From a virus, in the IMG/VR virus record IMGVR_UViG_3300026097_000068, positions 1 to 31,653 of that record: a DNA stretch of 31,653 nt; one strand, given 5' to 3'. The translations under genes and the position numbers were made by a program. Below the pieces are notes generated by a model. That model did no database searches. It was not told the DNA's origin and worked only from the letters and a program-made list of their open reading frames with translations. This document shows, in pieces, positions 1,363 through 16,014 of the stretch (positions within the stretch are counted from its first letter, which is position 1; each line of letters starts with the position of its first letter).

Positions 1363-1374
1363 AAGCTAAACTAC

Positions 1375-4140: not shown

Positions 4141-4147
4141 AGTGTAT

Positions 4148-4911: not shown

Positions 4912-4923
4912 CTCTCTTTGGTG

Positions 4924-5205
4924 TTAAAGGTTATAAAATTGTTTTGTCTTAATTACTTCTCCGTTTACAAGAATTTGTCGTAACCCTCTATCATTACCTA
5001 TACCTATTTGTTTATGAGCTGGATGAGCATCTACAAATGCACCATCAATCGGGTTCCAATGGATTCTACTTTTCCAAGGAGTCCTTGTTTCAATCGGCAT
5101 AGAGAGTTTTACTTCATCAGCGGCATATAGTTTGTTTCCAACACTATCTTTTCCAAGATAGTATTTTAGTTTATGTCGCTTTTTGAATTCTCTAAAAGAT
5201 GTCAT
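4924..5205 (-). CDS. Hypothetical protein (93 aa)
   Basis: I do not recognise this protein. It is basic at the N-terminus (MTSFREFKKRHKLKYYLGK) and then forms short beta-type segments rich in aromatic and histidine residues (TPWKSRIHWNPIDGAFVDAHPAHKQ), ending VIKTKQFYNL. The start at 5205 forms an ATGA overlap with the stop of the small gene upstream. Its stop codon lies inside the repeated leader of the next gene. It is one of four consecutive small genes that share nearly the same upstream sequence. Function is unknown. Confidence 0.6.
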   Translation of the reverse strand: MTSFREFKKRHKLKYYLGKDSVGNKLYAADEVKLSMPIETRTPWKSRIHWNPIDGAFVDAHPAHKQIGIGNDRGLRQILVNGEVIKTKQFYNL

Positions 5206-5351
5206 CTCTCTTTGGTGTTAAAGGTTTCTTCATAAACTTTATTAAGCAACATCGTCCAAATAGGTAACTCTTCTTTAGTAGTTACTATTGGTGTGTACTC
5301 ACATCTTTCAAGTTTCTCTGCTACTTGGTTTAATAATTCTTGTCTTTTCAT
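5202..5351 (-). CDS. Small hypothetical protein (49 aa)
   Basis: This is a 49-codon frame starting MKRQELLNQVAEKLERCEY and ending EETFNTKER. It has an amphipathic N-terminal helix and one cysteine. Both ends form ATGA overlaps with the flanking genes (5348-5351 and 5202-5205), which is strong positional support for translation. Its last codons (TFNTKER) are the coding reading of the repeated leader element of the next gene, so that element doubles as coding sequence here. No family is recognised. Confidence 0.6.
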   Translation of the reverse strand: MKRQELLNQVAEKLERCEYTPIVTTKEELPIWTMLLNKVYEETFNTKER

Positions 5352-5554
5352 TTTTCTTTTGTTTTAAAGGTTTCTACTACTGGAGCAAAACTTTGGACTA
5401 CCTCTCCCTTTACCCAAACTGAACCATTAAACTCTTGATACATTACTTTAGGTTTCCAAAACTGCCACCAGCGAGGTGAGGATTCAACAACAAAGGTTGT
5501 TTCTAATCTGTTCCATCCGTTTAAGGATTCTGTTACTTCAAATTTTGTTTTCAT
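5348..5554 (-). CDS. Small hypothetical protein (68 aa), Trp-rich
   Basis: I do not recognise this protein. The centre is rich in tryptophan (SSPRWWQFWKPKVMYQEFNGSVW, roughly 25-47), flanked by beta-type strands, and the C-terminus is FAPVVETFKTKEK. Its C-terminal FKTKEK resembles the FNTKER tail of the next gene because both are read from related copies of the repeated leader. It is the first gene of the repeat-leader cluster, after 126 bases of noncoding DNA. Function is unknown. Confidence 0.6.
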   Translation of the reverse strand: MKTKFEVTESLNGWNRLETTFVVESSPRWWQFWKPKVMYQEFNGSVWVKGEVVQSFAPVVETFKTKEK

Positions 5555-5680
5555 TTCTCTTTTGTTGTTAAAGGTTTTATGTAAATAAAATTCGTTTTTC
5601 TTATCATACCCCTACACCTTTGTAAAGGTTATTAATGCCAATAATCTGTAATACTGGCAAAAGTTAGTATGCGCCTATTT
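5555..5680 (-). other. Noncoding gap with imperfect inverted repeats
   Basis: These 126 bases lie between the zinc-ribbon microprotein gene and the repeat-leader cluster. On the minus strand they hold an imperfect inverted repeat with GCCA and TGGC ends (about 5638-5659) and a CCTTT/AAAGG dyad near 5621-5632. Either could be a weak hairpin or operator for the small-gene cluster. No clear TAnnTTTG promoter is visible. Confidence 0.3.
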
Positions 5681-5830
5681 TTATTCAGTTGCGCTTGTTT
5701 TTACATAGTTGGATACTCTACATACAGAGCAGAGTCTTTTACCTTCCAGCGATAAGGTTAGCTTTGGGATGTGGTGTGTGTCTTTCTTGCACCTACTACA
5801 ATACTGCATACCTTCTTCAGTTACTTTCAT
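5681..5830 (-). CDS. Zinc-ribbon microprotein (49 aa)
   Basis: This is a 49-codon frame beginning MKVTEEGMQYCSRCKKDTHH. CSRC (residues 11-14) and CSVC (34-37) are spaced as in a classical zinc ribbon, with two histidines after the first knuckle and basic residues around both. The last residues are VSNYVKTSATE. Small phage zinc ribbons of this type often bind nucleic acid or RNA polymerase, but nothing here fixes the partner. The four-cysteine pattern in so short a frame is unlikely by chance, and the ATG has an A-rich upstream region. Confidence 0.65.
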   Translation of the reverse strand: MKVTEEGMQYCSRCKKDTHHIPKLTLSLEGKRLCSVCRVSNYVKTSATE

Positions 5831-5939
5831 TTCAGTTGTAAAGTTTTTCTTTACTACTCATTAATGGTACAAATAAGCATCATTCTGTCGCTTTAAATGA
5901 ACATTATTGCGATATGCAATATTGCTGTTGTTCTGTACA

Positions 5940-6059
5940 TCAAGGTGTACAATCTGGATAAGTGCAGTTGTTGTTTAGTCTGCAACTTTCACCTTCTCTT
6001 TTAATGTGCTCACACCTCTTGTTGGTGTCAACTATTTTGTGCAATTTACTTGACATCAT
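5940..6059 (-). CDS. Cysteine-rich microprotein (39 aa)
   Basis: This is a 39-codon frame with two adjacent start ATGs. From about residue 16 on it reads CEHIKREGESC, then LNNNCTYPDCTP, giving four cysteines and a histidine that could hold one zinc ion. The first 15 residues are polar. The gene lies alone between the putative terminator after the SSB-tip gene and the zinc-ribbon gene. Its short length makes the call less certain, but the cysteine pattern and lack of internal stops support it. Function is unknown. Confidence 0.45.
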   Translation of the reverse strand: MMSSKLHKIVDTNKRCEHIKREGESCRLNNNCTYPDCTP

Positions 6060-6122
6060 TGTGAAGATTTAAGGTTCATCGTTGTGAGGATTTGAGCCGT
6101 TTAGCTTACTTAATTGGCTCAT

Positions 6123-6164
6123 AAGAAAGGGGGACACTACCTTGTCCGCAGTAATGTACCCCCC
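6123..6164 (-). terminator. Putative intrinsic terminator after the SSB-tip gene
   Basis: On the minus strand a GGGGG run with GTAC lies at 6156-6164 and pairs with GTCCCCC at 6129-6135 (one bulge), followed by a T-rich stretch (TTTCTTAT). A competing inner hairpin, GGACA/TGTCC, is also perfect, at 6132-6136 and 6143-6147. It sits about 50 bases downstream of the SSB-tip gene and could reduce transcription into the small-gene cluster. Confidence 0.45.
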
Positions 6165-6215
6165 TATCCTAATCATTTTAAAAAGTATTATATGCTATAA
6201 AATAAATACTACTCC

Positions 6216-6458
6216 TTAGAAAGGCATTGCATCTGAGTCGTTTACAGCGGTAGCTTTAGAAGCTCCTTTGTATTCGCCTTGAATCTGGATGTACTTACCG
6301 CCATCACGCTTACCTTTGATTTCTAGGTTTACCCAACCCATATCGTTTTTAGCGTTGTTTAGCTTCTCAAAATCTTGAGGACCAAAAGATACCTTAACGA
6401 TTTCTCCGTACTGAGTAGTTACTACGTTGGTCTTACCAACAAATACTTTGTCTGACAT
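6216..6458 (-). CDS. Small protein with SSB-like acidic C-terminal tip
   Basis: This 80-residue protein is mostly beta (VFVGKTNVVTTQYGEIVKVSFG, then GWVNLEIKGKRDGGKYIQIQGEY) and ends in a disordered linker plus DSDAMPF. That acidic-hydrophobic tip closely resembles the D-D-x-P-F tail by which bacterial SSB recruits partner proteins. The body is too short for a canonical OB-fold SSB (about 110 residues or more), so it may be a reduced ssDNA-binding protein or a decoy that displays the SSB tail. Its place beside the exonuclease, annealing protein and DnaA-like genes fits a role on single-stranded DNA. The tip is seen directly; the function is inferred. Confidence 0.6.
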   Translation of the reverse strand: MSDKVFVGKTNVVTTQYGEIVKVSFGPQDFEKLNNAKNDMGWVNLEIKGKRDGGKYIQIQGEYKGASKATAVNDSDAMPF

Positions 6459-6482
6459 TTTAATTTAATTTAGATTAGACAA

Positions 6483-6908
6483 TTAGTTTAACAATAATTC
6501 TTTTAGGTGTTGGTACTTGCTTTCCAAGTCCATCTGACGAGTGTACAATACATTCATCTTTTCCTGTAATCCTGCATTAGAAGAGTAGTACCCTTCTACA
6601 AATTCATTTGCCATCTCATAACTCTTAGCGTAACGCTTCTTCTCTAAGTTATCTTCGTGCATATAAAGGAATCTACGGACTCCTTTAGGGTCGGTGTTTA
6701 GTAGTCTGCCTATTTCTCTTGTAGCAAAGTCATAGGTCTTTAGGATTACGCAACAGATAGCTCTTGCTGTTGTAGCTTCACGAGCCTTGTCTGCGTTTAC
6801 TATCTTCACGGTAGGAACACCAGTAGCCTTCGCTACGGATAGGATAACCACATCCGATAGGCTATTAGAGTTCTCCGATGATAGCTGAGTAAGGTCTAAA
6901 TTCTCCAT
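6483..6908 (-). CDS. Stand-alone DnaA domain-IV-like DNA-binding protein (copy 1)
   Basis: This protein of about 141 residues has an N-terminal region resembling the DnaA C-terminal DNA-binding domain: VAKATGVPTVKIVNADKA, then REATTARAICCVILKTYDFATREIGRLLNTDPKGVRRFLYMHED. It corresponds to the basic-loop helix and the helix-turn-helix that read DnaA boxes. The AAA+ ATPase domains are absent. The C-terminal half is a charged helix or coiled coil. I chose the ATG at 6908 (MENLDL) because an upstream ATG at 6962 would extend the overlap with the exonuclease gene from 44 to 98 bases and add 18 non-conserved residues. It may bind an origin or compete with host DnaA. A weaker match than the copy at 8265. 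Confidence 0.6.
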   Translation of the reverse strand: MENLDLTQLSSENSNSLSDVVILSVAKATGVPTVKIVNADKAREATTARAICCVILKTYDFATREIGRLLNTDPKGVRRFLYMHEDNLEKKRYAKSYEMANEFVEGYYSSNAGLQEKMNVLYTRQMDLESKYQHLKELLLN

Positions 6909-7632
6909 TGATAAATAAATTTTCGTATTGTTTAATTGATGCTTTGAATTGACGCTCCCCAAAATTTAAGAAGTCTTCCGTTACATAGAAGATACCTACA
7001 TCGTAAGGATATTCTTTTTGTATAACTAAGAACCTAAAGTCGGTAACACCAGCCAACATACTGTACATATACGCTTGTTGAGCATAGTTCCACTTCGCAT
7101 TCTTTGCCCACTTAGAGATAGGGTCTTTGGTAGTCTTTAAATCCACCAAGTAGTCATTCACTCCATCAAACACTAGAGCATCTGCTTTACCCTTTAGAGG
7201 AATTACATTACCAGCATCGGTAGTGTAATCCATAATCATAGGAACTTCTGGTCTAAAAGAAATACCCATAAGCTCTTTAACGTCATTAGTCTTCTGGAGC
7301 TTGTCGTACATACCGTCTACTATAGATGCGTTCTTAGAGGTCAGCACAAGTAGCTCTGGGTTCGCTTGACAAAACTCTTTGTACTCTGCTCCTCTACGAG
7401 TTCCGTTCCATCCTGTGTGTATGGTTTTGTTCTCTAGGAATAGTGCGTGGATAGCGTGACCTACATCAAAGGCATCGTTACCGTCTTGCGACCATTTACC
7501 TATAGACTTTAGATAGAACTTTGTTGGAGACTCGTTAAGGAGTTTAAGACCACTATTGGTGATGTAGTGAGTATCAGCATAGTAGTTCTTATCATCGTCA
7601 AAGAACTTGAGTATTTCTTCTTTAGACTTCAT
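6865..7632 (-). CDS. PD-(D/E)XK exonuclease (RecE/lambda-exo/Cas4-like, DUF3799-type)
   Basis: This 255-residue nuclease has motifs in the order expected for RecB/RecE-like phage exonucleases. GHAIH is at residues 58-62 (the His of the first motif). GKADAL follows, with a catalytic Asp at 151, then the strand YLVDLKTTKD with Asp 164 and Lys 166. The Q-motif helix NYAQQAYMYSML has Gln at about 185-186. Such enzymes resect dsDNA ends to give a single strand for an annealing protein, and the next gene upstream encodes an ERF-family annealing protein. The two genes meet at a start-stop overlap at 7632. All catalytic positions are intact. DUF3799-type is my best family guess. Confidence 0.8.
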   Translation of the reverse strand: MKSKEEILKFFDDDKNYYADTHYITNSGLKLLNESPTKFYLKSIGKWSQDGNDAFDVGHAIHALFLENKTIHTGWNGTRRGAEYKEFCQANPELLVLTSKNASIVDGMYDKLQKTNDVKELMGISFRPEVPMIMDYTTDAGNVIPLKGKADALVFDGVNDYLVDLKTTKDPISKWAKNAKWNYAQQAYMYSMLAGVTDFRFLVIQKEYPYDVGIFYVTEDFLNFGERQFKASIKQYENLFINGEFRPYSAIIGEL

Positions 7633-8204
7633 TATCCTAAGATTTCTTTCTTCACCTTAGCAGTGATTTTGTATTTGCCTAGAGCGCTCTCTACTGCTGA
7701 CTTGTTACCAGACTCTACAGCGGCAATCATCTTAGCCTTGATTTCATCTGTAAGCTCTAGTAGTTGTGGCTTAGCATTAGATGTTGGCTTAGGAGCGTTC
7801 TGTGTGCCTCTACCGTGTTGGTTTGTAGCATCTGGGTCTTTCGTATCGTCAATTAAGAACATACCATTAAGAGCATACTTACGAGAATATGAACTTGATG
7901 CACCAAAGCATTGTGCGATATCCATCCCTTTACGAGTAGGGTCAATACCTGCTTGAGCAGTTACTACTCTGTCGTGTTCTCCATCAGATACTACTACCAT
8001 TGATTCAATGTAAGGAATACCTGCGACTTCTGATACAGAGTCTGAGATTTGCATCGTAAGTCCGTTACTAGCAAGTAGTGGTTTTACTGCTTCTAGGATG
8101 TCCTCCGCAGAACGGTAGTTGTACTTACCGAAGTTGTTTCTCTGATTCTTTGGTGCTTTCAGTTCCGACTGCACCTTAATCAGTTTCTTAGTTAAATTAC
8201 TCAT
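7632..8204 (-). CDS. ERF-family single-strand annealing protein
   Basis: This is a 190-residue recombinase of the Erf superfamily. The diagnostic N-terminal block, NNFGKYNYRSAEDILEAV and KPLLASNGLTMQIS (about 23-54), is followed by the strand pattern PYIESMVVVSD, a QAGIDPTRKGMDIAQ stretch and SSSYSRKYALNGMFLIDD (about 103-120), the family's conserved helix. A Thr/Gln-rich linker and a small helical C-terminal domain complete it. ERF proteins anneal complementary single strands during phage recombination and genome circularisation or concatemer formation. Pairing with the exonuclease directly downstream gives a complete two-component recombination module. Confidence 0.9.
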   Translation of the reverse strand: MSNLTKKLIKVQSELKAPKNQRNNFGKYNYRSAEDILEAVKPLLASNGLTMQISDSVSEVAGIPYIESMVVVSDGEHDRVVTAQAGIDPTRKGMDIAQCFGASSSYSRKYALNGMFLIDDTKDPDATNQHGRGTQNAPKPTSNAKPQLLELTDEIKAKMIAAVESGNKSAVESALGKYKITAKVKKEILG

Positions 8205-8264
8205 ACTATAATTGATTATTGATTACTTTCTCTGTGTTAATATAAGACTTTCTTCCTTATTACT

Positions 8265-8738
8265 CTACCCTATGCTGTCGTTTTGTTCAGTAACTTTTAA
8301 CAGACTTTTTAACATACCTTGTATTTCTTCTGCGTTTACTGAGCCATCAGCAATAGCACTTGAGATGATGTCTAGTATGCGTTTCTTCAGTAGTTCTGTA
8401 GTGCTTGTAGCTTGATTGACTTTCTCTTGTAAGTTGGTAAACACTAACCTCCATCTGTTTAGTGCTTCAATGTATGCTGGGTCTTTGATTTGTATAGCAT
8501 CCATCACTCGCTTGTTACTGTGAAGTATGGTAGCGTGGTTACACTCAAAGAGTCTGGATATTTGACTTGCTCCAGAGTTATACTTATGAGTCAGAATGTA
8601 ACCAAGACATTGTCTCGGTATAACGACGCTCGTTTGCCTCGTTGGGGACATTGGATTCAGTCCGTACAATCGTTTGTATTCTATGCTTAGTTCGCTCAAC
8701 AGATGTGTAGGTATTGCTAAGTTCTTTTCTTTGTTCAT
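8265..8738 (-). CDS. Stand-alone DnaA domain-IV-like protein (copy 2)
   Basis: This 157-residue protein has a near-complete DnaA domain-IV pattern. IEYKRLYGLNP forms the first helix, SPTRQTSVVIPRQCLGYILTHKY gives the basic loop and second helix, and SGASQISRLFECNHATILHSNKRVMD is the helix-turn-helix with the characteristic N-H-A-T-I-L (compare D-H-S/T-T-V in DnaA). There is no ATPase domain. The C-terminal 70 residues are helical and acidic. The start at 8738 places 155 bases inside the 3' end of the sigma-like gene. The internal ATG at 8651 would cut the first helix, so I kept the longer form. It may bind DnaA boxes at a phage or host origin. Confidence 0.7.
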   Translation of the reverse strand: MNKEKNLAIPTHLLSELSIEYKRLYGLNPMSPTRQTSVVIPRQCLGYILTHKYNSGASQISRLFECNHATILHSNKRVMDAIQIKDPAYIEALNRWRLVFTNLQEKVNQATSTTELLKKRILDIISSAIADGSVNAEEIQGMLKSLLKVTEQNDSIG

Positions 8739-9300
8739 TGCCTTCTTGTTCTAGTTCTTTCTTAATTCTATTGTATCTCGTCTGTATTCTCTTTAAAGAC
8801 TTCCTAAGTTGGGTGTCTGTGATTTCTAAGTGTCCCATCACCTCAGCGTTTCTAAAGTCCTCTTTGAACTTCAAGTGTAGTACCTGTCTATCCAGTGGAG
8901 AAAGTCTCTTAGAAAGCTCCGTATACAGCTCCTTGACGGTGTTGTCATAGCTTAGGTCAGTAGCTCTTGCAGAGTTTAGGTACACATTGTACTCATCATC
9001 ACTATCTCCATATAGTAGTTCTGACTCTGTACGAACATCTAAGCTATCTTTCTTAGCTACGTGATACGAGGATAGGATAGCATACCTTATAGCGTTCATT
9101 ACATAGCCGTATAGATGCTCACTGCTCTCGAACTCCATTCCCTTGTTGTAAATCTTTGTAATGGCTACAGAGGCAAAGTAATTAGCTCTCCTTACTGCTT
9201 CATCATTGTAGAAAGAGTAACCATACTTCTTAGCTACAAAGTGTAGGAATCTCATATTCGCTGGGAAGAACTCCCGCATTTGTTTCTCTGTTATCTTCAT
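8584..9300 (-). CDS. Divergent sigma-70-like RNA polymerase sigma factor
   Basis: This 238-residue protein has sigma-factor architecture. The region-2-like helices include NDEAVRRANYFASVAITKIY (about 32-51) and HLYGYVMNAIRYAILSSYHVAKK (about 62-84). An acidic spacer follows (GDSDDEYN). The C-terminal helix-turn-helix of region-4 type begins LSPLDRQVLHLKFKEDF (133-149) and continues NAEVMGHLEITDTQLRKSLKRIQTRY (about 151-176). Phage sigma factors redirect host RNA polymerase to middle or late promoters. The last 51 residues (from about 188) are encoded where the next gene overlaps in another frame and look polar and unconserved. It is the first gene after the AT-rich array. Region 2 is weak, so its DNA specificity is unknown. 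Confidence 0.7.
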   Translation of the reverse strand: MKITEKQMREFFPANMRFLHFVAKKYGYSFYNDEAVRRANYFASVAITKIYNKGMEFESSEHLYGYVMNAIRYAILSSYHVAKKDSLDVRTESELLYGDSDDEYNVYLNSARATDLSYDNTVKELYTELSKRLSPLDRQVLHLKFKEDFRNAEVMGHLEITDTQLRKSLKRIQTRYNRIKKELEQEGNEQRKELSNTYTSVERTKHRIQTIVRTESNVPNEANERRYTETMSWLHSDS

Positions 9301-9344
9301 CTCTTGTTTCCCCTTGTGAGTGATTACTATAATAAACTTATCTA

Positions 9345-9505
9345 TCCCCTTATAATAATAGTATCAATGATACTAGTAGTGTAATAGAGAATACCCTAAA
9401 GGTATTCTCTTATAATAATAGTTATTACTTATTATAGATTTATAATTTAATATAGCAGTATAACTTATAATACTAGTTTAAATTATAATAGTAGTATAAA
9501 TAGGT
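9345..9505. repeat. AT-rich array with TATAATAATAGT repeats and hairpins
   Basis: This nearly G/C-free stretch has two exact copies of TATAATAATAGT (9351-9362 and 9411-9422) plus several diverged copies (9427-9436 and 9458-9470). A perfect 7-bp hairpin lies at 9359-9375 (TAGTATC, loop AAT, GATACTA) and a 9-bp hairpin at 9387-9409. It also contains ATACTAGTAGT (9370-9380), which recurs at 13867-13877. It lies upstream of the sigma-like gene. It is a candidate DNA-unwinding element, an operator array, or a promoter region for that gene. Confidence 0.75.
9387..9409. other. Perfect 9-bp hairpin
   Basis: GAGAATACC (9387-9395) pairs exactly with GGTATTCTC (9401-9409) across a 5-base loop (CTAAA). 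The T/A-rich DNA on both sides lets it act as a weak terminator in either direction, but the surrounding repeat array makes a protein-binding or origin role equally likely. Confidence 0.6.
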
Positions 9506-9507
9506 TT

Positions 9508-9627
9508 TTATGCGTTAGTAATTTCATTTTGACTATCAAAGTTATTGTCCCAGTTATTCACATAGTCTCCGTACTGGTACTCATCATCAATGTAGTTATC
9601 TCTAAAATCCCAAGTCTTTATCATCAT
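9508..9627 (-). CDS. Very acidic small protein (39 aa)
   Basis: This is a 39-codon frame starting MMIKTWDFRDNYIDDEYQY and ending NNFDSQNEITNA. It is rich in Asp, Asn and Tyr, with no basic patch after residue 10. The start overlaps the 3' end of the coiled-coil gene by 26 bases, as in other junctions of this operon. Small acidic phage proteins often mimic DNA or bind RNA polymerase, but no family is recognised. The frame contains the DnaA-box sequence at 9554-9562, so part of its conservation could come from DNA-level function. Confidence 0.45.
   Translation of the reverse strand: MMIKTWDFRDNYIDDEYQYGDYVNNWDNNFDSQNEITNA
9554..9562. promoter_or_regulatory. Perfect DnaA box (TTATTCACA)
   Basis: TTATTCACA matches the bacterial DnaA-box consensus TTATNCACA at all positions. 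It lies about 50 bases from the AT-rich array that starts at 9505 and about 800 bases upstream of the gene for DnaA-IV-like copy 2. A single box can occur by chance in 31 kb of AT-rich DNA, so its position beside the array is the main support. Confidence 0.45.
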
Positions 9628-9934
9628 CTTCTGTATTAAATTCTTCGTTCATAATCTTATGCAAAACTTTTTGAGTAGCATCTAATTGTTCCTCCATTCC
9701 TTTGTATTTTAGGTAGAGACTTCGATACTCATCTCTTGCTTTCTCTATTGTGTCTCGATAAGTAACCATATCTCTGGTTCTTGTCTTGTGGATTTCCACA
9801 AATTTCTCTAGGTGTAGGAGGAGTTGGATTAATTCCTTCTCCTCCTTAACCTTAGCATACTCAGCTAACCTACTGAGAACTCCGTACAAGGTTTCTAGGT
9901 CAGCTCTTAGTAGTAGGTCATCTGCGTTTGTCAT
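9602..9934 (-). CDS. Coiled-coil hypothetical protein (110 aa)
   Basis: This 110-residue protein is almost entirely helical, with heptad-like leucines (LLLRADLETLYGVLSRLAEY, then LIQLLLHLEKFVEIHK and YRSLYLKYKGMEEQLDATQKVL) and an acidic tail (EDDDKDLGF). It has no catalytic motif. The start forms an ATGA overlap with the small gene upstream. It may be a scaffold or adaptor for a replication or transcription complex, but this cannot be determined from sequence. Confidence 0.65.
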   Translation of the reverse strand: MTNADDLLLRADLETLYGVLSRLAEYAKVKEEKELIQLLLHLEKFVEIHKTRTRDMVTYRDTIEKARDEYRSLYLKYKGMEEQLDATQKVLHKIMNEEFNTEDDDKDLGF

Positions 9935-10080
9935 TCTTCTTTTTTAGATATTGATAATACTGCGTTATAAGCGTTGTGTAGAGCTAAAGCTATACGAGCT
10001 TCATCTATACTCTCAAAGTCCTGTTGGTATCGTGTAAGCCCCGTAGGGCTGTCCCAAGATACATTGTAGTTTAGTTTCAT
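9931..10080 (-). CDS. Small hypothetical protein (49 aa)
   Basis: This is a 49-codon frame beginning MKLNYNVSWDSPTGLTRYQ and ending LSISKKEE. It has a short beta-strand start, then an amphipathic helix (SIDEARIALALHNAYNAVLSI). Both ends are ATGA overlaps with the flanking genes (10077-10080 and 9931-9934), which is strong evidence that it is translated. No family is recognised. Confidence 0.6.
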   Translation of the reverse strand: MKLNYNVSWDSPTGLTRYQQDFESIDEARIALALHNAYNAVLSISKKEE

Positions 10081-10343
10081 ACTAGCTTCCATTTTTGTCC
10101 GTTGTAACTTACCTCTAAGATGTTCTCTGGGATAAGCGAAGTGTAACGCTTACGATTGTTGTCCCAGATAGTCCATACGTTAGGGTTACTCTTACCTGTT
10201 CCTTTGGTGAACTTACGAACTCCAAATCTACCATTGATTCTGGTAACCTCTCCGTTCTTCTTACGATACTCAGCACCAAAGATATGACCAGTGTCTTGTA
10301 GTGCTTCTACCATCTCGTTTCTTGTAATTTTCTCTGCTTTCAT
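10077..10343 (-). CDS. SH3 beta-barrel fold-containing protein (putative)
   Basis: This 88-residue protein resembles a small group annotated in Bacteroidota phages and mobile elements as SH3 beta-barrel fold proteins. After an N-terminal helix (ITRNEMVEALQDTGHIFGAEY) come short strands with the signature INGRFGVRKFTKGTGKSNP, then an aromatic segment (NVWTIWDNNRKRYTSLIPENI) and VSYNGQKWKLV. The role of the family is unknown. A promoter of Bacteroidota type lies just upstream (10369-10399), so this is probably the first gene of a transcript that continues leftward through the operon. Confidence 0.6.
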   Translation of the reverse strand: MKAEKITRNEMVEALQDTGHIFGAEYRKKNGEVTRINGRFGVRKFTKGTGKSNPNVWTIWDNNRKRYTSLIPENILEVSYNGQKWKLV

Positions 10344-10368
10344 TGCTTATCGTTTTTGTTATATAGGC

Positions 10369-10399
10369 GCAAGATACATCTATTTTCTAAACCACCAAA
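10369..10399 (-). promoter_or_regulatory. Bacteroidota-type promoter (duplicated copy B)
   Basis: On the minus strand, TTTG (10396-10399) is followed after 19 bases by TATCTTGC (10369-10376), close to the TTTG/TAnnTTTG consensus. The surrounding sequence is a near-copy of the promoter at 11068-11097: both share the GGTTTA...AAATAGATGTA spacer and the downstream AACAAAACGATA-like leader. It would drive the gene starting at 10343. Confidence 0.7.
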
Positions 10400-10448
10400 T
10401 ATAAATTGATATTTTCTTTTTTAGGTACTTAACTATTCTCTTCATCTC

Positions 10449-10613
10449 TTAAAGGTTCTTAGCAAGGTGTATAGCATCCCAGATAACACCCCAAGCTCCC
10501 TCGTTAGCTTCAAAGTCTACTAGGACCTCTGCTGTGTCTCCGTGTAGTACGGTAATCCATCCATCTCTAAGTTCAATGTTGATACTTGCGGCTCCTTTCT
10601 CTGTGCGTTTCAT
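10449..10613 (-). CDS. Small hypothetical protein (54 aa)
   Basis: This is a 54-codon frame starting MKRTEKGAASINIELRDGW and ending GVIWDAIHLAKNL. It has alternating strands and an acidic centre (HGDTAEVLVDFEANEGAW), then a short C-terminal helix. It lies 4 bases downstream of another small gene in the same operon, with a usual ATG start. No known family or motif is seen. Confidence 0.55.
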   Translation of the reverse strand: MKRTEKGAASINIELRDGWITVLHGDTAEVLVDFEANEGAWGVIWDAIHLAKNL

Positions 10614-10617
10614 AATC

Positions 10618-10791
10618 TTATTTGTTAAAGTAATTGTCAGTTCTCATTGCTCCATCACTTACTGCTTGTCGGTAAGCTACCTCTTGTACGTTATAGTTAT
10701 CGTATGTACCCCAGCGTTGCATCTGCTCCATACACACTAGGTCCATCAGTTGTTCCTGTTCTTCGTCTTTCATTGTAAAATACATCTTCAT
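10618..10791 (-). CDS. Small hypothetical protein (57 aa)
   Basis: The frame starts MKMYFTMKDEEQEQLMDL and ends SDGAMRTDNYFNK. I chose the ATG at 10791 because it shares a base with the stop of the preceding gene (TAATG junction); a start at 10773 would leave 51 residues. The protein is acidic at the N-terminus, with a Met/Gln-rich middle (CMEQMQRWGTYDNYN). It has no recognisable domain. Confidence 0.5.
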   Translation of the reverse strand: MKMYFTMKDEEQEQLMDLVCMEQMQRWGTYDNYNVQEVAYRQAVSDGAMRTDNYFNK

Positions 10792-11039
10792 TAGTCTATT
10801 TGGCTTAACACTTCTCTTTCTACTCCATCGTCTATCAAGCTCATCATCTTTGAGTCTAGGTAATCTAAGTCACGATACAATACCTTATCGTTCGCATCGT
10901 ACTCTACAATCTCCTCAATGGTGTAGCTCCAATCAAACTCTCTCGGATTGTCAAAGGTTGCTGGTACATACAATACATCAACATATACCTCTACTACAAA
11001 GCAAGATGTTTCGTAATCAAATTCTACTTCAAAATTCAT
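10791..11039 (-). CDS. Acidic hypothetical protein (82 aa), first gene of the left operon
   Basis: This 82-residue acidic protein has strand-rich segments (FEVEFDYETSCFVVEVYVDVLYV), then EFDWSYTIEEIVEYDANDKV and a C-terminal acidic helix (LDSKMMSLIDDGVEREVLSQID). It has one cysteine and no membrane segment. It is the first gene on the minus strand after the divergent control region and follows the promoter at 11068-11097, so it is probably among the earliest proteins made. Small acidic early phage proteins can inhibit host enzymes; here this is only a possibility. Confidence 0.65.
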   Translation of the reverse strand: MNFEVEFDYETSCFVVEVYVDVLYVPATFDNPREFDWSYTIEEIVEYDANDKVLYRDLDYLDSKMMSLIDDGVEREVLSQID

Positions 11040-11067
11040 AACTCTATCGTTTTGTTGTTATCTGGGT

Positions 11068-11097
11068 GCAAGTTACATCTATTTTTTAAACCACAAA
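11068..11097 (-). promoter_or_regulatory. Bacteroidota-type promoter (duplicated copy A)
   Basis: On the minus strand, TTTG (11094-11097) and TAACTTGC (11068-11075) are separated by 18 bases. The spacer and the leader downstream closely match the copy at 10369-10399. It should initiate the leftward operon a few bases before the gene at 11039. Confidence 0.7.
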
Positions 11098-11258
11098 ACT
11101 ATTTTTACTTTTTTTCGAGTCCCAATTTTTTTTTCACTTCACGTTACAGAAAACCCCCCAGTTTTTTGACCCAAGCCCGAATATATTTAGGTAGGCTCAC
11201 CCACTCGTTCCACCCGTGTGACGGGATAACCCTTAGTAGTGGTATTTTTTACCTAGTT

Positions 11259-11275
11259 TGTCCAATGTTTGGACA
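11259..11275. promoter_or_regulatory. Palindromic operator candidate
   Basis: TGTCCAA (11259-11265), spacer TGT, TTGGACA (11269-11275) form a perfect dyad. A half-site TGTCCAA recurs at 11405-11411, next to the plus promoter. The right arm overlaps a TTTG at 11268-11271, which is followed 19 bases later by TATACTTA (11291-11298), a weaker plus-strand promoter match. A repressor bound here could control rightward transcription. Confidence 0.5.
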
Positions 11276-11349
11276 TATTCAGTAGAGGTTTATACTTAGA
11301 TAAGAAAAAAGTGTTAAAATTCTTTTTTATATCAATTTATTTTTGTAGA

Positions 11350-11359
11350 CGCACGTGCG
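11350..11359. promoter_or_regulatory. 10-bp palindrome CGCACGTGCG
   Basis: This is a perfect G/C-rich palindrome inside a strongly AT-rich region, about 55 bases upstream of the plus promoter. Such a dyad is a typical binding site for a dimeric regulator. No regulator gene that would obviously bind it is identified in the window. Confidence 0.4.
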
Positions 11360-11413
11360 GGTCATATAGACGACAACTAGAGCGAAAAAAATATTTTAAA
11401 AAAGTGTCCAAAG

Positions 11414-11445
11414 GTTGCACAGTTTAAAAAAGTGTTTTATCTTGC
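11414..11445 (+). promoter_or_regulatory. Promoter for the plus-strand cassette
   Basis: GTTG (11414-11417) followed by 20 bases and TATCTTGC (11438-11445) matches the same promoter form as the two minus-strand copies. Transcription would begin about 45 bases before the first small gene at 11497. A TGTCCAA half-site just upstream suggests control by the factor that binds 11259-11275. Confidence 0.55.
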
Positions 11446-11496
11446 GAGTGCAAACGAGCGAAAAACGCCCGACCACATTAAAAACAAATACTAGAA

Positions 11497-11604
11497 ATGA
11501 AAACAGACAGAAAAGACAATTGGCAATTTATAGCAGTTCAAACCGTTATCGGATTGACAGGTGCATATGCGATTCTCTTGTGTATTGCTGTATTATTTAG
11601 TTAA
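11497..11604 (+). CDS. Single-pass membrane microprotein (35 aa)
   Basis: This is a 35-codon frame with a charged N-terminal tail (MKTDRKDNWQ) and one hydrophobic segment (FIAVQTVIGLTGAYAILLC) spanning about residues 11-29, then IAVLFS. By the positive-inside rule the N-terminus would face the cytoplasm. It is the first gene of the rightward cassette. Such small membrane proteins in phages may act on the host envelope or exclude other phages, but nothing identifies the role here. Confidence 0.55.
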   Translation: MKTDRKDNWQFIAVQTVIGLTGAYAILLCIAVLFS

Positions 11605-11623
11605 TTAAAAAAAAATTAAAGCA

Positions 11624-11719
11624 ATGAGACATTTAATTTTAGTAGCCATTATCGGGCTAATTGCCTACAAATTGGAACAGTACCAAAACAGACAAACCAG
11701 AAACGAAACAAAAAATTAA
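11624..11719 (+). CDS. Membrane microprotein (31 aa)
   Basis: This is a 31-codon frame: a short hydrophobic start (MRHLILVAIIGLIAYKL) followed by a polar, basic tail (EQYQNRQTRNETKN). It may be a membrane anchor with a cytoplasmic tail. It is preceded by the cassette leader ATTAAAGCA directly before ATG. Two consecutive small membrane proteins at the start of the cassette suggest an envelope-directed role. The call depends on the leader and the hydrophobic segment only. Confidence 0.45.
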   Translation: MRHLILVAIIGLIAYKLEQYQNRQTRNETKN

Positions 11720-11723
11720 AACA

Positions 11724-12128
11724 ATGAAAGTATCTAAACTCAACCCAGCAAAAGCCGTAAACATCAACACGGCACACCGCAAAGAAAACAATTTTACAAA
11801 AGGTTTGACAATCTGCGCAACAATAGACGGCAAAATCAAGGAAGTAATAACAACCCGTTTATACTGGACAAAAGGCGGAACGTGTACCGCTTGCGTGTGG
11901 TTACATTCTGGAACTTGGGACAGTGCCAGCGGAAAGAGTCCCGCAAACAGTGGCGGCTATTGTAAAGAATCCAACGCAGTAGGCGAAGCACTCACAAAAC
12001 TAGGCTTTGAGTTCACCGAATCAATAAACGGAGGCGTAGGGATGCGAACGATAGAAGAAGCCTTAGAAGCAGCTGCAAAGTACCTGAGCGGAGCGAAGGA
12101 AGTCAAAACAATAACGCAACACGGATAA
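11724..12128 (+). CDS. Hypothetical protein (134 aa), three cysteines
   Basis: I chose the ATG at 11724 (MKVSKLNPAKAVNIN) because it carries the cassette leader ATTAAAACA. The longer frame from 11661 would overlap the previous gene by 59 bases. The protein is strand-rich, with a core TTRLYWTKGGTCTACVWLHSG and GKSPANSGGYCKESNAVGEALTKLGFEF. CTAC plus a later Cys could bind metal, but the family is not known to me. The C-terminal helix reads RTIEEALEAAAKYLSG. Similar short proteins occur in Bacteroidota mobile elements by general impression only. Confidence 0.6.
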   Translation: MKVSKLNPAKAVNINTAHRKENNFTKGLTICATIDGKIKEVITTRLYWTKGGTCTACVWLHSGTWDSASGKSPANSGGYCKESNAVGEALTKLGFEFTESINGGVGMRTIEEALEAAAKYLSGAKEVKTITQHG

Positions 12129-12151
12129 CATAAATAAAATAAAATAGAGCA

Positions 12152-12523
12152 ATGAAAACAACGTACAAGACAAACGAGCTAAAAGACAGAACGCACCTGC
12201 TAAGAATCAACGTATTTGATGGAACGAGCGACGATATCAGACCTACACACCTACAACTATTAAAAGTAAACAAGGCACACGCTGAAAGGCTGTATAATAG
12301 TGGGCATACTATTTTTATACACCCCTGCAAAATGAGGCTTAATAATATGTGGCAAAGCCCTTACCAAGCGCAAAGAAACGAACAACACCCCGAAGAATTT
12401 AAAAAAGTAGATGCTGAATATACTTACTACAATTGCGACAGCGAGAGAGGAAGATATCCGAACTACTTTGCTGTATTAAATTACGCAGGAGAAAACAAGT
12501 ACCAGATAGTAAAAGAATTTTAA
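12152..12523 (+). CDS. Hypothetical protein (123 aa)
   Basis: I do not recognise this protein. It starts with a strand segment (RTHLLRINVFDG), then helices (PTHLQLLKVNKAHAERLYN), a strand-turn (GHTIFIHPCKMRL) and a tyrosine-rich C-terminal half (EYTYYNC, YPNYFAVLNYAGENKYQIV). There is no membrane segment or clear metal cluster. Spacing to the next gene is 4 bases. It belongs to the plus-strand cassette under the promoter at 11414-11445. Confidence 0.6.
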   Translation: MKTTYKTNELKDRTHLLRINVFDGTSDDIRPTHLQLLKVNKAHAERLYNSGHTIFIHPCKMRLNNMWQSPYQAQRNEQHPEEFKKVDAEYTYYNCDSERGRYPNYFAVLNYAGENKYQIVKEF

Positions 12524-12527
12524 AGCA

Positions 12528-12863
12528 ATGAAAATAAAAACAGAAACAATACAAGGTATAGAGGTACACACGTGGACAGGACACAAGGCGTTATACTACA
12601 CCAACCACAAAGGACACACCCTCCTTTGGAGATATTCAAAAGACACCCCAACAGAAGAAGCGGTAAGAGACTTTAAAAAATTATTTAGGTTTGATATGAT
12701 GACAGAAATAGAACAAATACAGGAAGCCATTAAAATTTACGAGGGGTACAGGTTCGCAACTCAAAAAGAATGGATAGAGGCGGAAAGGTTTCTCTTAAGC
12801 GTCCACGATGAACACGGAACAATTGAAATAAACAAACTAAAAAATATTTTAGCCGATGTTTGA
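12528..12863 (+). CDS. Hypothetical protein (111 aa)
   Basis: I do not recognise this protein. An N-terminal strand-rich part (TIQGIEVHTWTGHKALYYTNH, then HTLLWRY) is followed by a helical, charged half (EEAVRDFKKLFRFDMMTEIE, EAIKIYEGYRFATQKEWIEA, LNK-type end). It has several His and Trp residues but no obvious catalytic set. An internal ATG (MMTEIEQI) could give a shorter product, but the leader TTTAAAGCA lies at the first ATG. Its stop overlaps the next start by 8 bases. Confidence 0.55.
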   Translation: MKIKTETIQGIEVHTWTGHKALYYTNHKGHTLLWRYSKDTPTEEAVRDFKKLFRFDMMTEIEQIQEAIKIYEGYRFATQKEWIEAERFLLSVHDEHGTIEINKLKNILADV

Positions 12864-13041
12864 TTTCATAAAGACCAAACCCGCAACAATTAAAAAAGCC
12901 AAAAGAAAGGGTGCGTACATCAACGCCAACGGCAGGAAATACCTTGAGAGCCTAAACGACTACACAGAACTAAACACAGGTACTACACATTACTTTAATG
13001 AGCAACGCACCAAAGTTAAACGTATACTAAACTATATTTAA
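12856..13041 (+). CDS. Small basic hypothetical protein (61 aa)
   Basis: This 61-residue basic protein has an N-terminal MFDFIKTKPATIKKAKRKG, a turn region (INANGRKYLESLNDY) and a C-terminal helix (NEQRTKVKRILNYI). The ATG at 12856 overlaps the previous gene's stop by 8 bases, consistent with coupling, and it lacks the cassette leader, unlike its neighbours. It may bind nucleic acid; no family is recognised. Confidence 0.5.
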   Translation: MFDFIKTKPATIKKAKRKGAYINANGRKYLESLNDYTELNTGTTHYFNEQRTKVKRILNYI

Positions 13042-13052
13042 AAATTAAAACA

Positions 13053-13211
13053 ATGAAAAAACTTCACCACATAGAAAAAATAAAGGACGCATATACCGAT
13101 TACTTATTTACTGAATCAATGATACCACACGACGAAATCAGCTGGTTAATTGATAACCTAAATGAGGACGCAAGGCAAACTATAATAGATTGGTACAGCG
13201 ATAACCACTAA
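13053..13211 (+). CDS. Small acidic hypothetical protein (52 aa), last gene of the cassette
   Basis: This is a 52-codon frame starting MKKLHHIEKIKDAYTDYLF, then an acidic helix (PHDEISWLIDNLNEDARQT) and IIDWYSDNH. The leader ATTAAAACA directly precedes ATG, as for other cassette genes. It ends 28 bases before the strong terminator at 13240-13265, so it closes the transcription unit. Function is unknown. Confidence 0.6.
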   Translation: MKKLHHIEKIKDAYTDYLFTESMIPHDEISWLIDNLNEDARQTIIDWYSDNH

Positions 13212-13239
13212 AGAGAAACACCAACCAGAAGAAACAAAC

Positions 13240-13265
13240 AGGCGCCCTAATAAGGCGCCTTTTTT
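13240..13265 (+). terminator. Strong intrinsic terminator
   Basis: AGGCGCC (13240-13246), loop CTAATAA, GGCGCCT (13254-13260) form a perfect 7-bp GC stem followed by a run of six Ts (13260-13265). This is the clearest terminator in the window. It ends the small-gene cassette and insulates it from the late region. Confidence 0.9.
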
Positions 13266-13279
13266 ATGCTTCAAAGGTT

Positions 13280-13339
13280 CGTAACTGGGAGAGGGAGAAA
13301 GGGAACACGGGAAAGGGGAAATACGCCCGTAGGTTACGC
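13280..13339 (+). other. Potential G-quadruplex framed by an inverted repeat
   Basis: Five G-runs (13287-13289, 13293-13295, 13301-13303, 13309-13311 and 13315-13318) are separated by loops of 3, 5, 5 and 3 bases with no T in them, fitting the G3+N1-7 rule for quadruplex formation. CGTAAC (13280-13285) and GTTACG (13334-13339) flank it as a perfect 6-bp inverted repeat. In an AT-rich genome this is unusual. Function is unknown; it could be RNA or DNA structure. Confidence 0.55.
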
Positions 13340-13411
13340 AAAACCAAAACTCCACCCCTTATAATAAAGCGCAGAATATAAGACCCACGCACCATAAGCG
13401 AAGACCCGAAC

Positions 13412-13471
13412 CAATACCAGAACCGAACCAATAAGAGGCCCTAAGCAATACCAGAGACGAACCACTAAAGG
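13412..13471 (+). repeat. Two imperfect 26-base direct repeats
   Basis: Copies at 13412-13437 and 13446-13471 share CAATACCAGA and CGAACCA blocks with about five differences over 26 bases. A shorter GAACCAATA unit also precedes copy 1 (13408-13416). Tandem repeats next to terminase genes can be binding sites for the small terminase subunit, though they could also be remnants of a longer repeat. Confidence 0.5.
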
Positions 13472-13486
13472 AAGGTAAAAATACTA

Positions 13487-13615
13487 ATGACCGGAGGAAG
13501 TGAAGCTCGAGTATACTCTAACCCCTCAGCACGGGGGGGGCAGCTACAGGCTCCAAACAACCAAAATAAACAACTTATACACCGAAGAACAGAAAGTCTC
13601 TTAGAGACGCTCTAA
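13487..13615 (+). CDS. Doubtful small reading frame (42 aa)
   Basis: This frame starts MTGGSEARVYSNPSARGG and ends RRTESLLETL. It is low-complexity and contains an eight-base G run (13533-13540), and there is no promoter or terminator relation that supports it. A second open frame without a start codon overlaps it (13570-13680). I list it only because the region otherwise has nothing, and I lean towards noncoding. Confidence 0.2.
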   Translation: MTGGSEARVYSNPSARGGQLQAPNNQNKQLIHRRTESLLETL

Positions 13616-13721
13616 ACACCCTTAGAATAGATGTGAGCTACCTTTGTGTTGTAAGGTGGATTAGGAATTAAAAGTAAGGGGAAGGGAAGTTAGTATATGG
13701 ACTATTCGAGACTGACCCGTT

Positions 13722-13880
13722 ATTATAATACCATTATACTCTTATTATAATAATAGTATAACTTCTACTATTATTCTAATTACTTATACTTAACTAAAGG
13801 ACTATTAGTATAATATCCTCTCTTATTAGGAGAGGATATAATAACTTATTCTATTATAATAGTATTATACTAGTAGTATA
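13722..13880. repeat. AT-rich palindrome array matching the one at 9345-9505
   Basis: This array has TATAATAATAGT (13746-13757) and ATACTAGTAGT (13867-13877), both exactly as in the left array. It forms three strong dyads. AATAATAGTA pairs with TACTATTATT (13749-13758 and 13766-13775), extendable outward past one mismatch. ATATCCTCTC pairs with GAGAGGATAT (13813-13822 and 13830-13839) with a 7-base loop. CTATTATAATAG (13851-13862) is a perfect palindrome. A near-match to a DnaA box (TTATACACC, 13575-13583) lies about 150 bases upstream. It is a candidate origin, packaging or regulatory element. Confidence 0.7.
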
Positions 13881-13931
13881 CAGGAATCTCTCTCTGAGAT
13901 AATTTACAAACTTCAGAAGGAAAGGATAATG

Positions 13932-13962
13932 ATTGATGTCAACATTCATTATTGTATATTTG
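13932..13962 (+). promoter_or_regulatory. Late promoter (TAnnTTTG type)
   Basis: ATTG (13932-13935), 19 bases, then TATATTTG (13955-13962) matches the Bacteroidota promoter consensus at the full -7 element and the best spacing. It would start transcription near 13969, so the next gene cannot use an ATG further upstream than 14026. It is the likely promoter of the terminase operon and perhaps of the whole late region. Confidence 0.75.
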
Positions 13963-13965
13963 AAT

Positions 13966-14322: not shown

Positions 14323-14764
14323 AAACGGTGAAGTGATTCGTGGTCAAGGGGCAAAGCTTACTGACTTGCAAACTAACTTCATTGAGAGGGTAGCCAACGA
14401 AGGGTTGGAGAACGCCTCTAAGATTGCAAAGGATATTGGGTATACCAATTACTACCGAGATAGAAGAAGAACAGGTACAGCGTTCTATAAGGAGCTTATG
14501 GCTATTGCTGATTCTGAAGGTAAGACTATTGAGGCGGCGAAGGGTACAAACCTTAACAAGTTGATTTGGATTAGGGATACTGCCTTGATGAACGATGATA
14601 TGAAGACAGCTATGGATGCCATCAAGATTATCAACGAGATGCAAGGGTATAAGGCTCCTACGAAGGTAGAACAGACCAAGTTTGATGTGAAGGCTACTAT
14701 TGACCTTACAGCTCCTAAAGAAGAGGAGGATGACTTCTTAGATATTGATTACACTGAAGAGTAA
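14300..14764 (+). CDS. terS: Terminase small subunit (putative)
   Basis: The protein has about 154 residues; the start is ATG at 14300 or 14303 (MPSLRDKNGEV). The N-terminal part has a helix-turn-helix pattern: LTDLQTNFIERVANEGLENASKIAKDIGYTNY (about 20-51). A long helical middle follows and then an acidic tail (KEEEDDFLDIDYTEE). Its position directly before the large terminase, with a TAATG stop-start junction at 14764, and its size and HTH are typical of phage small terminases. These bind the packaging site and regulate the large subunit. The DNA-binding site is probably in the noncoding region just upstream. No single diagnostic motif exists, so the call rests mainly on context. Confidence 0.8.
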   Translation: MMPSLRDKNGEVIRGQGAKLTDLQTNFIERVANEGLENASKIAKDIGYTNYYRDRRRTGTAFYKELMAIADSEGKTIEAAKGTNLNKLIWIRDTALMNDDMKTAMDAIKIINEMQGYKAPTKVEQTKFDVKATIDLTAPKEEEDDFLDIDYTEE

Positions 14765-16014
14765 TGAACATAAAGCTTTACAATCCTACAAAACCTCAAG
14801 TGGACTTTCATAAGTTAGTACACGAGGACAAACCTTTTATCAGTTGTGTTGTTGCTGGTAGACAGACAGGTAAGACGTTCTTTATGCAGAACGATTGCTT
14901 TATGCGTGCCTTAAACAACCCTAAACACCGCATATTCTGGGTGTCACCCATCCAAGACCAAGCGAATAAGGTGATGAAGGATATTGAAGCTATGTTTAGT
15001 AGCCATCAAGAACTATGGACGAAAATAGTAAAACGATATGACAGAAAGGCTAATGAACTCTACCTTTATAACGGTAGTTTTATTAAGTTTCGTTCTGCTG
15101 ACAGCGGGGATAATCTGCGGGGGGCTACTCTGGATTTTATCTATCTAGATGAGGCAGCGTATATGAAGCTAGACTTTATCAATGAGGTGCTGTTACCTAT
15201 GGTGACAAGGACTGATGGTAGGGTATGTGCAGCGAGTACCTTCAATGGTCCCAATTGGTTCTTTGAATGGTACAAGGAAGGGCAGCTAGAAGAGAACTGG
15301 GAGCAAGTAAAGAGCATCAAGCGTACTTACCTAGACTTAAACGATGAAGGTGTCGCTAAGACGGTCTTAGGGATTAAGAAGAGTATGACTAAGGCTCAGT
15401 TTGACCAAGAGTTTCTATGTAAGCCAGTAAGTGCTAATGCTTTGTTCTCTAACATAGAAGATGCTATATTCACTGAAGAGATAAAAGACTATGAGCGTGT
15501 GTATATCGGTATGGATATTGGTGTAGCTCAAGATTACACGGTGATGACTGCTATAAATGAGCGTTACGAGGTTGTAGATATCTTTAGGTTCAACTACAAG
15601 GAAGAGAGCTTAGACTATGATGAGTTCAAGGATAGGATTAAAGATTTCTACTTGAAACACGATGATAAGCTTGCTGCTTGTTACTTCGAGGTCAATAACA
15701 ACGATTTATTGTTTGATGACCTTACGGATGACGATAGATTGTACAAGATGATACCCTTTCAGACAACTTCTAAGAGTAAACCAGAGATTATACGTACTTT
15801 GATTAAGCTTTTTGAGGATAAAGAGATAAAGATACCTCCAAATACAGACCTTATTAAAGAGTTATACGACTTTAAAAGCAAGAGAAACCCTATTACAGGA
15901 AACTTACAGTTCTCAAATACGGATGGCAAACACGATGATATGGTAATGTCGTTAGCTATTACAGCATATTGTGCTAAGGAAGAGCAAGACGGAGGTATAA
16001 CTTTATTTTTATAG
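14764..16014 (+). CDS. terL: Terminase large subunit
   Basis: This 416-residue packaging motor and nuclease carries its motifs in order. Walker A is GRQTGKT (32-38). Walker B with the catalytic Glu is LDFIYLDEAAYM (D129-E130). Motif III is STFNGPNW (about 158-165). In the C-terminal RNase H-like nuclease the likely metal ligands are D251 (YIGMDIGVAQD), E309 (CYFEVNNND) and D391/D392 (GKHDDMVMSL). The length is normal for siphovirus large terminases. It pumps DNA into the prohead and cuts concatemers. It shares a TAATG junction with terS. All motor and nuclease residues look intact. The TerL subtype that predicts cos or headful packaging cannot be read by eye. Confidence 0.95.
   Translation: MNIKLYNPTKPQVDFHKLVHEDKPFISCVVAGRQTGKTFFMQNDCFMRALNNPKHRIFWVSPIQDQANKVMKDIEAMFSSHQELWTKIVKRYDRKANELYLYNGSFIKFRSADSGDNLRGATLDFIYLDEAAYMKLDFINEVLLPMVTRTDGRVCAASTFNGPNWFFEWYKEGQLEENWEQVKSIKRTYLDLNDEGVAKTVLGIKKSMTKAQFDQEFLCKPVSANALFSNIEDAIFTEEIKDYERVYIGMDIGVAQDYTVMTAINERYEVVDIFRFNYKEESLDYDEFKDRIKDFYLKHDDKLAACYFEVNNNDLLFDDLTDDDRLYKMIPFQTTSKSKPEIIRTLIKLFEDKEIKIPPNTDLIKELYDFKSKRNPITGNLQFSNTDGKHDDMVMSLAITAYCAKEEQDGGITLFL

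Follow-up and report, generated by a model that had tools for sequence, protein, structure and literature searches.

Two AT-rich arrays with common sequence elements

The 31,653-bp virus sequence IMGVR_UViG_3300026097_000068 of IMG/VR, referred to here as the window, carries two AT-rich intergenic arrays of imperfect palindromes, the left one near the head of a leftward operon and the right one upstream of the terminase operon. The arrays and their positions are conserved among related viruses, their sequence is lineage specific and common to both arrays of a genome, they co-occur with a stand-alone DnaA domain IV-like (DnaA-IV) protein, and their hairpin stems are maintained. These arrays may well be multicopy targets (iterons or operators) of one phage-encoded, sequence-specific protein, the likeliest candidate being the stand-alone DnaA-IV protein; judged from the sequence data, we assign this reading a probability of roughly 0.6. 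The arrays and their hairpins, to none of which a strand is assigned, are the following.

9345 to 9505: left array, with AT-rich imperfect palindromes at 9350-9384 and 9465-9499, two copies of a 12-mer (9351, 9411), and one hairpin at its center; position conserved
13718 to 13885: right array, with palindromes at 13744-13780 and 13852-13880, the 12-mer at 13746, and an 11-mer at 13867; conserved upstream of the terminase
9386 to 9410: left central hairpin, a 10-bp perfect stem with 100% complementary arms; relatives have CCCTTTAGGG-type stems of different sequence
13809 to 13843: right central hairpin, with 88% complementary arms; stem kept through compensatory changes in relatives

Word occurrence was counted on both strands of the record. 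The preliminary description of this DNA had reported exact words common to both arrays, and a whole-record search confirmed them: the 12-mer TATAATAATAGT is present only at 9351, 9411, and 13746, and the 11-mer ATACTAGTAGT only at 9370 and 13867. The same description had named occurrence at many unrelated places, or a lack of conservation in close relatives, as grounds for abandoning the idea. Both words proved to be confined to the arrays in the window, the 12-mer is equally confined in 12 related contigs of clade A (see below), and the array pair is kept in close and distant relatives. The longest word present in both arrays is ATACTATTATTATAA (15 nucleotides [nt], in one orientation). The arrays are also the two GC minima of the record (0.18 to 0.20 over 150 bp, compared with a mean of 0.384), and they have 26 distinct 8-mers in common, a value reached by 1 of 300 dinucleotide shuffles of the right array (mean, 11.6). 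Folding as single-stranded DNA gave z scores of -5.2 and -3.9, and none of 200 shuffles was equally stable. Taken together, word confinement, GC minima, palindromes, and folding indicate that the two-array observation is real and not due to chance.

Conservation of the array pair in related viruses

Relatives were retrieved by scanning IMG/VR with the terminase of the window, and 80 of 201 loci (72 to 85% identical) were kept.

14764 to 16014, plus strand: terminase large subunit (PHROG 2, E = 8.5e-45), the query for relatives; its operon lies downstream of the right array

In a terminase tree, which was a quick tree with support near 80 on several branches, clades A, C, and D each formed a single group, as did clade B except that F was nested inside it; the array-less genomes G014, G015, and G022 formed one clade adjoining A. 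Most loci long enough to show one contained an AT-rich palindromic array upstream of the terminase, at a distance of 0.8 to 1.3 kb in relatives and by the first late-promoter-like motif, and those reaching further had a second array approximately 3 to 6 kb to its left. In most genomes of clades A to E, only a few bases separate the left array from the start codon of the first leftward-operon gene; in F, the distance is about 90 bp. This first gene encodes the stand-alone DnaA-IV-like protein in clades B to F and in L036 and L041; in most clade A genomes, among them the window, an inserted sigma-like gene separates the DnaA-IV gene from the left array. The positions of the arrays with respect to the flanking operons are constant across the relatives. 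In the window, genes point leftward from 1 to 11,039 (DNA metabolism) and rightward from approximately 14,026 onward (terminase and structural genes). Of the two flanking genes named in the preliminary description, the rightward terminase operon stands, whereas the identity of the leftward sigma-like gene is weak (PHROG 1740).

The array pair is carried by a family of marine bacterial viruses that are uncultured. Among 50,697 phage records, the best-listed terminase matches were only about 26% identical. A search for cultured relatives with the DnaA-IV protein gave no match. No bacterial genome contig was found to carry the terminase, and TTTG-N17-21-TAnnTTTG, a promoter pattern of the Bacteroidota type, was matched 0 times in the window (1.3 expected). 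In view of these results, no host is claimed.

The repeats exist in six forms, or dialects, read by eye: A, TTATAATAATAGTATA; B, TATAATAGTAACTAT; C, TAATATATTAGTA; D, TATAGTATACTATA; E, TATAATGTAATTA; and F, CCCTATATAGTATA. Each genome has one form, shared by its left and right arrays, and the form differs between lineages. On average, a left and a right array had 18.5 8-mers in common when both came from one genome, 16.9 when they came from different genomes of a clade, and 8.0 when they came from different clades (A to E), and in the clade table of shared 8-mers the own clade was highest in each row, except for the single-genome clade C, for which D was slightly higher. In dinucleotide shuffles of single array pairs, 0 to 38 of 300 were as high as the observed value; since some pairs were matched by up to 38 shuffles, single genomes alone are not all convincing. 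In a blind comparison of 200-bp bins over whole contigs, the array pair of most array-bearing genomes came out on top or was preceded by contig-end repeats only; other repeats outranked it in G006, G011, G021, G024, and G026, and G017 showed a separate dialect. A clade B 21-mer was found at 7 loci across IMG/VR, all 7 with a DnaA-IV gene of the family. The corresponding scan with a clade A 19-mer returned 13 loci, and terminase-family genes were visible in the fetched stretch of 10; as to the others, L213 is on the same contig as the family locus L044, and L210 and L215 had none of the family genes tested. ATAGTA, tried as one core word for all dialects, was enriched in A, B, D, and F but not in C or E, and no universal core is therefore claimed.

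As in an operator pair, the same site sequence is thus present at both places and changes together between lineages. The shared DNA-binding protein proposed in the preliminary description is well supported by this common dialect, and both arrays are probably bound by protein. Chance similarity of two AT-rich intergenic stretches would profit from their low complexity, which favors short common words, and from the shuffles that equal the observed sharing in several genomes. Such an origin of the similarity is hardly credible and already contradicted by the conserved positions in the relatives examined (dialects A to F), the dialect sharing within clades, and the rank in the blind scan.

Palindromes and maintained hairpin stems

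The array units are imperfect palindromes of approximately 35 bp with 17-nt arms (coordinates above), arranged around one GC-richer hairpin per array. In 17 right arrays of clade A, 100% of the cells of the central stem were paired, with changes on both sides in 5 of 9 pairs. For both helices, 98% of the cells were paired (slid controls, 31 to 68%), and there were 34 double-change cells, compared with 10.4 in shuffles; only one G-U pair was present in these stems. The stems of other clades have very different sequences and are again almost perfect, as seen in a scan that favors Watson-Crick pairs. The outer helix is almost invariant, which fits a putative conserved binding site. The sequence of the inner stem varies while its pairing is kept. 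This stem looks to be maintained for its shape, with strand opening, cruciform formation, and termination as possible uses.

Hairpins conserved with compensatory changes, together with the location of the left array between two same-strand genes, where it may be transcribed, would also suit arrays that act as RNA, in the form of transcribed hairpin leaders, antiterminators, or terminators heading two operons. We regard this as improbable, since the units occur in both orientations without consistent polarity, the stems have practically no G-U pairs even though RNA would tolerate them, the right array is located upstream of a promoter-like motif, and an Rfam scan gave no match. A tRNA scan was negative as well. 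Fixed polarity and G-U-tolerant stems, as in nut- or put-like leaders, were not found. RNA or other direction-dependent elements were consequently dismissed as the principal explanation on the basis of the mixed orientation and the near absence of G-U pairs; the central hairpin alone could be a terminator.

DnaA domain IV-like proteins and co-occurring genes

The candidate binders and their neighbors in the window are as follows.

8265 to 8738, minus strand: stand-alone DnaA domain IV-like protein of 157 amino acids (aa) (Pfam PF08299, E = 2.3e-6, below cutoff; 1j1v profile match; model), the leading candidate binder
6483 to 6962, minus strand: second DnaA-IV-like protein (PF08299, E = 1.1e-4, below cutoff), a candidate alternative or partner binder
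8584 to 9300, minus strand: sigma-factor-like gene (PHROG 1740, E = 9.2e-5, weak), optional and mostly in clade A
9602 to 9934, minus strand: 110-aa protein of unassigned function, adjoining the left array on its other side; no Pfam family above cutoff
10077 to 10343, minus strand: 88-aa protein, weakly WYL_2/Sm-like (PF10902, E = 0.016, below cutoff)

The gathering score of PF08299 (Bac_DnaA_C) is 31.5; the window protein reached 28.0 bits, and its orthologues in L054, L059, and L084 reached 36.0, 47.2, and 39.8, respectively, with no PF08299 match for the clade D orthologue of L072. A profile of 17 DnaA-IV orthologues retrieved only DnaA from the PDB, the best match being 1j1v (E = 7e-10), the structure of E. 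coli domain IV on a DnaA box. When the proteins are aligned to 1j1v, most of the residues that touch DNA in that structure, namely the arginine of the basic loop and the motifs PRQ and D/N-H-x-T, are kept. The AlphaFold model of the window protein (pLDDT, 86) had 3pvp, 8btg, and 1j1v, DnaA domain IV structures in complex with DNA, as its best Foldseek matches (probability, 1.00; E = 3e-3 to 3e-2; target-normalized TM scores of 0.73 for 3pvp and 0.70 for 1j1v), and the 157-aa protein is accordingly modeled as a DnaA domain IV fold with basic loop and helix-turn-helix. DnaA domain IV alone gives sequence-specific double-strand binding. No AAA+ domain was matched by Pfam in the protein, which consists only of the helix-turn-helix part and a helical tail and is thus not a full DnaA initiator. 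Small DnaA-C proteins are frequent in phages, and structure searches revealed many domain IV-only phage proteins on record; the protein itself is hence not new, and it is the paired arrays that stand out.

We compared the gene families of 18 array-bearing and 3 array-less genomes in a phyletic profile, in which shorter, partly antisense open reading frames with incomplete distributions were set aside by judgment. Three families, those of the DnaA-IV, 110-aa, and 88-aa proteins, were present in 18/18 array-bearing and 0/3 array-less genomes, and no other family had this distribution; the second DnaA-IV-like protein was found in 16/18 and 0/3, respectively. All three array-less genomes retain the terminase, annealing protein, exonuclease, SSB-like protein, and helicase, and both long ones retain the structural genes. 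In G014 and G015, ACTTATAGTA repeats lie within AT-rich DNA upstream of the terminase, and no second array was seen in them. The co-occurrence with two DnaA-IV-like genes that the preliminary description had predicted thus holds, as one independent event, because the three array-less genomes form a single clade.

The same profile leaves room for another factor of this module as the binder, namely the second DnaA-IV-like protein, the 110-aa or 88-aa protein, or small terminase-associated proteins, with the right array being, for example, a packaging-site component. The first three genes follow the presence/absence pattern, and the right array lies upstream of the terminase beside a conserved CGGGGGG motif that is a possible cos/pac site. 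We nevertheless consider this unlikely: terminase-associated genes persist in the array-less clade, a second array of the same dialect 3 to 6 kb away would be unexpected for packaging, and the 110-aa and 88-aa proteins have no recognizable DNA-binding domain above cutoff.

Proposed roles of the two arrays

The binder is probably the DnaA-IV protein. At the left array, which in most clade A to E genomes lies a few bases before a start codon, a classical autoregulatory place, it would control its own operon, so that autoregulation is a probable function; at the right array, whose function is probably also regulatory or replicative, it could control the first late (terminase) promoter, open a replication origin, or both, and this at the point where gene orientation and GC skew turn over. 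In this way, a single protein could restrain the replication operon that encodes it and at the same time launch replication, late transcription, or both. As with iterons, repeated candidate initiator-binding sites lie near the initiator-like gene: one set heads the DnaA-IV operon, and another set occupies the second place. DnaA autorepresses its own gene (PMC5835720). DnaA itself combines both roles, at operator and at origin. That an AAA+-less, domain IV-only protein would be the initiator or regulator of a two-site system, whose paired arrays evolve in concert, switch dialect, and couple early replication genes to the late operon, is a tentative proposal to which we give somewhat less than an even chance.

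The origin half of this proposal might also stand alone, with the AT-rich iterons and hairpin of the right array as the main origin and the left array as a second origin or a site of initiator titration or autoregulation. Consistent with it are the AT-rich, hairpin-forming arrays with a G-run 44 to 111 bp upstream in most genomes, the GC-skew minimum close to the right array in many genomes, the relationship of the candidate binder to the replication initiator DnaA, and the replication and recombination proteins of the left operon. However, the skew turn coincides with the change in gene direction and is therefore no proof of an origin. In DnaA, the AAA+ domain opens origins; the DnaA-IV protein lacks it, so host DnaA or a phage helicase would be needed for opening. 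This account is possible, with the odds against it. The two-part origin named in the preliminary description is likewise a possibility.

Several further observations weigh, like the confounding of the GC-skew turn with gene orientation, against multicopy targets read by the DnaA-IV protein. (i) The array-less genomes are one clade, and the co-occurrence is a single event. (ii) The presence/absence pattern is common to three or four genes and not limited to DnaA-IV. (iii) DnaA-IV proteins occur without such arrays in G027/L004 and in Nonlabens phage P12024L. (iv) DnaA-IV identity does not track dialect: in rough alignments, L070 and G018, of the same dialect, are 28% identical, and G017, of a different one, is at 26%. 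(v) The array units are unlike the E. coli DnaA box TTATNCACA, as judged by reading the arrays and the enriched 5- to 7-mers. G017 was also considered as a clean swap of DnaA-IV and dialect; this comparison broke down, as several other genes of the left arm have also diverged in that genome.

Comparison with known systems

To our knowledge, no phage family has been described in which a DnaA domain IV-only protein goes with paired arrays that bear hairpins and co-evolve, and a limited search of the open-access literature found neither such a paired-array phage system nor an account of the targets or role of phage DnaA-IV-only proteins. The paired arrays are a variant of iteron/operator biology. 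In plasmid iteron systems (R6K pi, RepA), an initiator-like protein has repeated sites at its own gene and at the origin. The viral system resembles them in its initiator-like candidate and in repeats at that candidate's own operon and a presumed origin; it differs in that the candidate binder is DnaA domain IV only, the second site is 3 to 6 kb away beside late genes, and the units, found in both orientations, are imperfect AT-rich palindromes accompanied by a conserved hairpin. The lambda operators oL and oR likewise are two multisite arrays that flank a central region before leftward and rightward operons, presumably with one reader protein. Unlike in lambda, no CI/Cro-like repressor or lysogeny genes were identified here, the rightward operon is the terminase/late operon, and the AT-rich palindromic units are longer and accompanied by hairpins. 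Bacterial oriC shares clustered sites, AT-rich DNA, a domain IV protein, and autorepression (established for DnaA and proposed here), whereas the viral protein has domain IV and a helical tail only, and its candidate sites are not TTATNCACA and vary between lineages. Mycobacteriophage stoperators and start-associated repeats are also specific to a phage lineage and change with it, but they are scattered instead of gathered in two hairpin-bearing arrays. Finally, Nonlabens phage P12024L, a cultured Bacteroidota phage, has the same gene order, with Erf, exonuclease, and SSB coming after a DnaA-C-like gene; it has no such array upstream of its DnaA-C gene and is not among the best-listed terminase matches.

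In six lineages of differing sequence, the DnaA-IV-only protein of this family is accompanied by an evident candidate target, which makes the pairing testable by binding assays. The six lineages also represent a natural set for studying joint change of a DnaA-type recognition helix and its sites, and the arrays, if they are DnaA-IV docking sites, mark how these viruses control replication and late genes.

Genes and motifs around the arrays

The inter-array region contained mostly variable small genes in the 12 genomes compared, the 88-aa gene being the only one common to all 12. This variability would suit arrays that serve in site-specific recombination, a role considered in the preliminary description, or that form the two ends of a mobile cassette. 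Such a role found no positive support and is very improbable: no recombinase or integrase gene was noticed, the arrays are not copies of each other and have only short units in common, these units occur in both orientations, and the positions relative to the flanking operons are constant. A block of small plus-strand genes at 11,500-13,262, with a T-tailed hairpin near 13240-13266 at its end, gives the impression of having been inserted where genes otherwise run leftward; parts of it are also present in G019 (clade C), and one gene in G002.

Downstream of the right array lies the first member of a series of promoter-like motifs.

13926 to 13965, plus strand: inverted repeat and TTGTATATTTG, the first of the late-promoter-like TTGTAnATT series

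TTGTAnATT occurs on the plus strand at 13952, 16712, 24267, 25711, and 27259, in gaps before late genes, and likewise in relatives; it looks like a phage late-promoter motif. The first of the row, TTGTATATT, is located 30 to 100 bp after the right array. In the array-less clade, TTCGTAAATTATAAAA was found at four places, and those that were read sit at gene starts. On the upstream side, a conserved CTCnGnnCGGGGGG motif precedes most right arrays of relatives at the distance given above for the G-run. The window version, CTCAGCACGGGGGGGG (approximately 13521-13545), lies 186 bp before the right array; the motif is farther away in L059, and L041, L044, and L054 have shorter G-runs. This motif is possibly a cos/pac site or an origin GC cluster.

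The sigma-like gene, which overlaps the reading frame of DnaA-IV, is restricted to most clade A genomes and G027, a genome lacking a terminase relative; it is not at the junction of array and DnaA-IV gene in clades B to F or in L036 and L041. After the DnaA-IV gene, the left operon encodes an annealing protein, an exonuclease, the second DnaA-like protein, an SSB-like protein, and a helicase. At the place of the first of these (7632-8204, minus strand), relatives have alternative single-strand annealing proteins, either MSNLTKKLIKVQSELKAPK-type (Erf) or MSxxxFKTTNIKGKxYVEVN-type, which are mixed among close relatives.

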